Shown here piece after piece: positions 12,017 through 13,531 of a DNA stretch of 64,000 nucleotides. This DNA comes from Gammaproteobacteria bacterium. Its GTDB lineage: Bacteria > Pseudomonadota > Gammaproteobacteria > Steroidobacterales > XN24. The stretch covers positions 1 through 64,000 of the forward strand of contig JARFQW010000069.1 in NCBI GenBank assembly GCA_029287575.1, in the 5' to 3' direction. The notes under the pieces were generated by a model. That model saw only the letters and a program-made list of their open reading frames with translations, was not told the DNA's origin and made no database searches. Position 1 is the stretch's first letter. Each line of letters opens with the position of its first letter. The translations under genes and the position numbers were made by a program.

Positions 12017-12138
12017 TTCGATCCAGTGGGATAACGGACCCGGGGCCCATGCGCCCGGCGTCCCTTACCGCGGGCCGGCTCGCCGGTGCGGGTGGAGTTC
12101 TGGCGGATCGTTCTTTTCTGGCGGCGGAGGGGCACTGA
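12013..12138 (+). CDS. Possible 41-aa protein coupled to rhomboid
   Basis: A 41-codon frame whose ATG overlaps the rhomboid stop (ATGA) and whose TGA overlaps the ATG of the next small frame (TGATG). The product starts MIRSSGITDPGPM and has no recognisable motif. The only support is the pair of coupling overlaps; its codon content is not strongly protein-like. Confidence 0.25.
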   Translation: MIRSSGITDPGPMRPASLTAGRLAGAGGVLADRSFLAAEGH

Positions 12139-12323
12139 TGCGGGAGTGGCTGAAACTGATGCTCGAGGAAATCCGCAGGCGGGAGTCAGAAGCGCTGGAG
12201 AGACAGCCGGCGCCGGACTCTCCGGGACGGTCCAAGAGCCCGGGTGGGGAGAAACGGCGCGACGAGACCGGAGGCGGGGACCGACAGGAGGCACCCGGCC
12301 CGGACGGCGGCGAAGGGCCGTGA
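12138..12323 (+). CDS. Small hypothetical protein, highly charged
   Basis: A 61-aa product. The first 20 residues form an amphipathic helix (MREWLKLMLEEIRRRESEAL) and the rest is a disordered Pro/Gly/Arg/Asp-rich tail. A good ribosome binding site (GGCGGAGG at 12122-12129) lies 8 nt before the ATG. It follows the rhomboid gene in the same direction and ends 26 nt before the A-tract of the minus-strand terminator at 12349. No family is recognised. A longer frame at 12086-12448 overlaps it but lacks a ribosome binding site. Confidence 0.45.
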   Translation: MREWLKLMLEEIRRRESEALERQPAPDSPGRSKSPGGEKRRDETGGGDRQEAPGPDGGEGP

Positions 12324-12348
12324 CCCAGGCACGGGAGCGGAGACGGAC

Positions 12349-12383
12349 AAAAAAAAAGGCCGCGGGTTGGGGCTCCCGCGGCC
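12349..12383 (-). terminator. Intrinsic terminator of the candidate sRNA
   Basis: On the minus strand GGCCGCGGG pairs with CCCGCGGCC (stem arms at 12375-12383 and 12358-12366, 8-nt loop), followed directly by nine T residues (12357 to 12349). On the plus strand no T-tract follows the hairpin, so it acts mainly on minus-strand transcription. Confidence 0.85.
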
Positions 12384-12515
12384 GGTCCGGTCATGCCAAG
12401 AAGGCCCTGTTCCGGTGGGGCGACGCATCCTTGCGCCTTACTGAGTGACAAAGTCATAGATCAGGCATGCGGCGGGAACTTCCCGAAACCGGGAGGGGCA
12501 CATCTCCGCCGAAAT
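12349..12515 (-). ncRNA. Candidate small RNA, about 165 nt
   Basis: A minus-strand transcription unit with all its signals visible: a sigma70 promoter (-35 at 12543-12548, -10 at 12519-12524) and an intrinsic terminator with a nine-T tract (12349-12383). No protein frame starts within it. Predicted stems include CGGCGG/CCGCCG (12506-12511 with 12470-12475) enclosing TCCCG-GTTT-CGGGA at 12481-12494; GCCTGA...TCAG...GGC at 12435-12466 with TGAC-TTT-GTCA inside; and CGC-AAGGAT-GCG near 12424-12435. It has about six GGA motifs. The loop sequence CAAGGATG (12426-12433) matches the core of the CsrA/RsmA binding consensus. A Csr/Rsm-type regulatory RNA is therefore possible but unproven. It does not resemble 6S RNA, tmRNA or RNase P as I know them. 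Confidence 0.6.
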
Positions 12516-12518
12516 GGA

Positions 12519-12548
12519 GTTATACGATTTTTCTCTGGAGAAAGTCAA
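12519..12548 (-). promoter_or_regulatory. Sigma70-type promoter of the candidate sRNA
   Basis: TTGACT (-35, 12548 to 12543) and TATAAC (-10, 12524 to 12519) are separated by 18 nt. Each matches five of six consensus bases, exceptional in this GC-rich window. The predicted transcription start lies near 12510-12515. Confidence 0.72.
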
Positions 12549-12552
12549 GCTT

Positions 12553-12574
12553 TGTATAGGTGCGAAACTGTACA
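12553..12574. promoter_or_regulatory. Inverted repeat upstream of the sRNA promoter
   Basis: TGTACAG (12574 to 12568, minus strand) and CTATACA (12559 to 12553) form a near-perfect dyad with an 8-nt spacer, just upstream of the -35 box and between the divergent sRNA and the DMT exporter gene. The position and symmetry fit an operator or activator site. The spacing differs from the GacA box (TGTAAG-N6-CTTACA). Confidence 0.4.
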
Positions 12575-12616
12575 AAATATTTACCTTCTGGCTGAAAGCC
12601 CCTGCGGCGGGGCACG

Positions 12617-13531
12617 ATGAGCCATCCATGCCACCGCCCGCGGCTGATCGACTGGGTCATGCTGCTGTGTCTGGTCGCGCTCTGGGGCAGCGCATTTCTG
12701 CTGATCGCGGTGGCGCTGGATGGCTATGCCCCGCTGACGATCAGCACGGGGCGGCTCCTCATCGGGAGCGCTGTTCTGTTTCTTATCGTGCTGCTTTCTC
12801 GCCGGCCGCTACCCAGAGACCCGGCCCTCTGGCGGCGGTTCGCGCTCATGGCCGTGCTCGGTAACGCGCTGCCGTTCTTTCTCGTGTCATGGGGGCAGCA
12901 GGGGGTGCCTTCCGGTCTTGCGGGGATTCTCATGGCGGTCATGCCGCTGGTGGTGGTGGCTCTCGCCCATTTCCTGGTCCCCGGCGAGCAGGTCACACGC
13001 CGCCGGGCGCTGGGGTTTGCCGCCGGGTTTGCCGGCATCGTCGTCCTTCTGGGTCCGGAAATCGGCGCCGCGCAGAAGACCGGCCCGGGGACCGAGGCCT
13101 CTGGGCTGATTTATCCGCTCGCCGTGCTGGGAGCGGCAGTCTGCTACGGCCTGAATGTCATAGTGGCCCGGCGAGCGCCCCGCTCGGACCCCGTCGTCGT
13201 CTCCGCCTGCGTGCTGTTCCTGGCTTTCCTGATGTCGGCGCTTGTCTGGGCTTTCCCGAGCGGGTCAGCGCCTCTCGAGCCCGGGAATCCGGCGCGCCTT
13301 GCCCTGTTTGCGCTGGGGGCATTGTGCACCGGTCTGGCTACCGTGCTGTACTACCAGATTGTCAACGCCGCAGGGGCGACCTTCCTGTCACTCATCAACT
13401 ATCTCATTCCGGTATGGGCGGTGCTGGTGGGTGCGCTGGTGCTCGGTGAGCGTCTTGCGGCTTCGGCGTTTGCCGGGCTGGCGATGATTCTGTCGGGAAT
13501 CGTTCTGTCCCAGTCCCGGCGACGGTCATGA
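12617..13531 (+). CDS. EamA/DMT family transporter
   Basis: A 304-aa inner-membrane protein with about ten hydrophobic segments in two EamA repeats; the first begins DWVMLLCLVALWGSAFLLI with the family motif WGSAF, and the second follows a linker near residue 155. DMT proteins export small metabolites such as amino acids. The substrate is not evident. Its stop overlaps the start of the flavoprotein gene (ATGA). The AT-rich spacer upstream also holds the divergent sRNA promoter, so the two may share control. Confidence 0.9.
   Translation: MSHPCHRPRLIDWVMLLCLVALWGSAFLLIAVALDGYAPLTISTGRLLIGSAVLFLIVLLSRRPLPRDPALWRRFALMAVLGNALPFFLVSWGQQGVPSGLAGILMAVMPLVVVALAHFLVPGEQVTRRRALGFAAGFAGIVVLLGPEIGAAQKTGPGTEASGLIYPLAVLGAAVCYGLNVIVARRAPRSDPVVVSACVLFLAFLMSALVWAFPSGSAPLEPGNPARLALFALGALCTGLATVLYYQIVNAAGATFLSLINYLIPVWAVLVGALVLGERLAASAFAGLAMILSGIVLSQSRRRS

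Follow-up and report, generated by a model that had tools for sequence, protein, structure and literature searches.

A candidate small RNA with its own predicted promoter and intrinsic terminator in a gammaproteobacterial intergenic spacer

We analyzed a window of 64,000 nt, comprising positions 1–64,000 of contig JARFQW010000069.1 from the draft genome of a Gammaproteobacteria bacterium (GCA_029287575.1), which is 92.8% complete. The locus under study is a 293-nt intergenic gap (12324–12616) flanked by two plus-strand genes. The first encodes a small protein of 61 amino acids (12138–12323, plus strand) that has no Pfam match; by tblastn and ORF comparison, its N-terminus (MxEWLxxMxEEIRR-like) is shared with three family genomes, while its C-terminus is variable and charged. 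The second encodes an EamA/DMT-family transporter (12617–13531, plus strand; Pfam EamA, E = 5.6e-38). The spacer interrupts a gene series that, in five family genomes, runs without a break or with overlaps from the 61-aa or rhomboid gene through the EamA transporter gene to a gene for a FAD oxidoreductase. Within this gap, on the minus strand and divergent from the transporter gene, lies a unit with a predicted transcript of approximately 164 nt (12349–12512), whose start was placed 7 nt past the -10 element and whose end corresponds to a T run.

Upstream of the predicted start, the sequence scan identified a sigma70-type promoter on the minus strand (12519–12548), consisting of TTGACT (12548–12543), an 18-nt spacer and TATAAC (12524–12519). 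It scores 10/12, and no other promoter-like site on the two strands of the 64-kb window reaches that score; when the 293-nt intergenic region is dinucleotide-shuffled, 0.6% of the resulting sequences contain a site of this quality. The near-consensus promoter described in the original prediction was therefore recovered, with the caveat that the -10 element ends in C instead of T at its highly conserved last base, which is the reason why the site is missing from the list of a stricter scan. The terminator scan likewise recovered the perfect intrinsic terminator that had been described, at 12383–12349 (minus strand), with an all-G·C stem of nine pairs, an 8-nt loop and nine T; it is the sole strict intrinsic terminator on either strand of the window. 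Promoter and terminator occur on one strand, in the right order and approximately 165 nt apart, as had been proposed, and a chance origin of such an ordered pair is unlikely. Since the terminator shares strand and order with the promoter and lies between two plus-strand genes, it probably does not belong to an adjacent protein-coding gene, and no minus-strand gene is near enough to require it.

The proposal that no protein frame starts between promoter and terminator did not hold, as ATG codons are present at 12503, 12457 and 12428, among others. The frame starting at 12503 comprises 21 codons, while those starting at 12457 and 12428 continue beyond the terminator; frames starting inside the unit in general have at most 21 codons or read through the terminator, and none of them is preceded by a well-spaced ribosome-binding site. 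A coding origin was considered because the unit and one short nucleotide match share the peptide AACL(I/V)YD, and was set aside after Pfam returned no match for the three longer translations from the unit (63, 130 and 75 aa). The 12349–12512 unit is intergenic, with its own predicted promoter and intrinsic terminator and without a good ORF, as expected of an independently transcribed bacterial sRNA.

The minimum free energy fold of the transcript contains a bulged 5' hairpin, a branched middle region closed by CAUGCC/GGCAUG, a GGCGC-AAGGAU-GCGUC hairpin (12422–12437, minus strand) and the terminator. The expectation of at least three stem-loops is borne out insofar as several are predicted, but the total folding energy does not go beyond that of shuffled sequences: it is ordinary (z = -1.31), and 21 of 200 shuffles reach an equally stable fold.

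To place the unit among known RNAs, we searched Rfam, the draft genome and related genomes. The Rfam search returned nothing at the gathering score, so that the check for a known family came out negative, and the best weak match, mmgR/suhB (RF00519; 18.3 bits, E = 0.17), falls mainly on the terminator and was rejected as far under the gathering score of 41. The description of the unit as a candidate new small RNA is accordingly supported by its promoter, its terminator, its orphan intergenic position and the absence of an Rfam family. BLAST against the draft genome yielded only the self match. Searches of 97 relatives, of 396 order-level and 369 class-level genomes, and of phages and plasmids gave no convincing nucleotide homolog, nor did they bring up another species of the same genus. 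Three short nucleotide matches were dismissed, being located in apparent coding sequence and no better than chance would produce in a search of this many genomes. A covariance model built from the single sequence gave weak matches in the family, and those displayed cover mainly the terminator hairpin. In the family genomes, the transporter gene comes directly after either the 61-aa gene or the gene for a rhomboid protein. In five of them the junction upstream of the transporter measures between -4 (overlap) and about 95 nt, the exact value varying with the choice of start codon, compared with 293 nt here. Because these junctions lack the 293-nt spacer, the unit looks like an addition specific to this lineage.

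This lack of conservation in the searched genomes, together with the ordinary folding energy and the imperfect -10 element, is what would be expected if the signals were spurious, either as noise from a divergent promoter or as a promoter and a terminator paired by chance, without any functional RNA; transcription of the unit could also be a by-product of a divergent promoter region. We consider such an origin improbable, given that the only strong promoter and the only strict terminator of the window co-occur in order at a distance of approximately 165 nt. The genomic context also bears on a cis-acting role, in which minus-strand transcription would oppose read-through from the rhomboid and 61-aa genes into the transporter gene and so uncouple the transporter from the genes preceding it. 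Several relatives retain the order rhomboid–(61-aa gene)–transporter–oxidoreductase with the genes close together or directly adjoining, the new spacer holds an AT-rich (37.5% GC) divergent promoter-like zone, and it contains no plus-strand terminator, so that antisense pairing with a read-through mRNA is plausible. However, the strong terminator ahead of the next gene would confine the antisense RNA to the spacer, and the plus-strand read-through is itself putative, leaving interference in cis with a small but real chance of being the main function.

The original prediction had further tentatively placed the unit among the Csr/Rsm-like RNAs on the basis of about six GGA motifs and of a loop, AAGGAT, regarded as the CsrA binding core. 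On the latter point, a hexaloop ANGGAX on a stem is the published form of a high-affinity CsrA site (PMC4005645), and the AAGGAU hexaloop of the 12422–12437 hairpin fits this form, making it one plausible CsrA site and the only ANGGA hairpin loop of the transcript. The count of six GGA motifs was also reproduced, but two of these are GGGA, of which one lies inside the terminator stem-loop, and only one of the six is an ANGGA. Six GGA compare with a dinucleotide-shuffle mean of 3.4 (p about 0.06), and at least six are also found in 13% of 166-nt fragments of the window; hairpins with GGA in the loop occur in 15% of window fragments. Three GGA are more than half unpaired, at 0.54–0.69. For summed GGA exposure, the unit ranks within the top 6% of window fragments and exceeds every one of 150 shuffles of its sequence; this is the strongest argument for the Csr reading, although a modest one. 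The E. coli CsrB control, treated in the same way, has 22 GGA, most of them more than 0.8 unpaired, and 7 ANGGA (counted non-overlapping). The multiple unpaired GGA/ANGGA motifs characteristic of Csr/Rsm sequestering sRNAs are thus absent from the unit.

Model searches pointed in the same direction. The CsrB covariance model had no match in seven genomes (the draft and relatives). The RsmZ model gave only sub-threshold matches elsewhere in the genomes, several of them in coding sequence, and these were rejected as homologs, since in context they are short G+C-rich hairpins or parts of coding sequence; the RsmV model gave a fragment match to the unit of 8.9 bits against a cut-off of 100. The GacA/UvrY-type upstream palindrome has the form TGTAAG-N6-CTTACA. 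It was not found upstream of the unit, even with 3 mismatches allowed, or in the draft genome at up to 1 mismatch, and one GacA-like site found elsewhere is apparently inside coding sequence. The existence of an upstream palindrome of this kind is noted in the study of RgsA, an sRNA of Pseudomonas with a single ANGGA-type motif that failed to relieve RsmA repression, from which its authors conclude that several motifs are required (PMC2375449).

CsrA itself was not found in the 92.8%-complete draft, whereas it is encoded by all six family relatives (6/6). In the relatives inspected, csrA adjoins lysC and tRNA-Ser/tRNA-Arg; the draft contains distant paralogs of lysC, and a close ortholog was not found. 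Because the neighbouring lysC is missing too, the absence of csrA is best read as an assembly gap, and the csrA region is probably missing from the assembly. We therefore dropped the absence of CsrA as evidence in either direction.

A CsrA/RsmA-sequestering RNA of the CsrB/RsmZ kind would be consistent with the high-affinity form of the hexaloop, the moderate exposure of two further GGA and the presence of CsrA in all six family relatives, but it is a very unlikely identity for this unit, which has near-background GGA, a single ANGGA loop, no GacA palindrome, no credible match to the CsrB or RsmZ models and no counterpart found in family genomes; RgsA, an sRNA with one such site, cannot sequester RsmA. 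The unit shares with RsmX/Y/Z and CsrB/C the nature of an intergenic non-coding RNA, an intrinsic terminator and an ANGGA hexaloop (one here), but differs from them in lacking multiple exposed GGA, the upstream palindrome and a covariance-model match. With RgsA (120 nt) it has in common a small intergenic RNA with a single unpaired ANGGA; RgsA, to which no sequence relation was shown, is controlled indirectly by GacA and has conserved counterparts in pseudomonads (PMC2375449). CsrA sequestration is not likely as its mode of action, because the repeated binding sites needed to trap CsrA/RsmA are missing, and for the same reason the unit has no bearing on how CsrA is controlled in this group.

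The reading that we favour, and regard as probable, is that the unit encodes a lineage-specific small regulatory RNA of approximately 164 nt, with independent transcription that begins at a sigma70 promoter of its own and ends at a strong intrinsic terminator. This reading is based on the unique promoter and terminator pair, which is oriented opposite to both flanking genes and lies in a spacer that relatives lack. RNA polymerase would start at this promoter on the minus strand and stop at the terminator, and the RNA, if expressed, may be an orphan regulator; its most likely mode would be base pairing, antisense action against plus-strand read-through from the 61-aa gene to the transporter gene, or both. 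At least seven T after the terminator hairpin are described as a feature of Hfq-binding sRNA genes (PMC5558911); the nine T found here follow this pattern, and the predicted U9 tail fits an Hfq-type sRNA. The unit has in common with Hfq-dependent base-pairing sRNAs of the SgrS and RyhB type a strong terminator that is rich in G+C and followed by seven or more T (nine here), but differs from them in that no seed, target or homolog was identified. A more specific and speculative version, which we would not expect to hold, is an sRNA gene of recent origin, specific to this lineage, that arose within a conserved, compact operon together with a divergent promoter, tuning the transporter or trans targets and possibly acting as a one-site partner of CsrA.

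Overall, the unit looks like an ordinary small-RNA candidate, previously unstudied. If expressed, it would represent an uncatalogued sRNA in a gammaproteobacterial family without an Rfam-recognised regulatory RNA in the stretches searched, as well as an example of an sRNA gene arising within a compact operon.

Directly upstream of the -35 element, an inverted repeat, TTTGTA-N14-TACAAA (12551–12576), may be an operator. No second copy exists in the window when up to 2 mismatches are allowed, or in the draft genome at up to 1 mismatch, so that an operator shared with further sites was rejected, and its function as an operator is uncertain because approximately 10% of local shuffles hold comparable inverted repeats. 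The repeat sits in the AT-rich zone common to the sRNA promoter and the divergent transporter gene.
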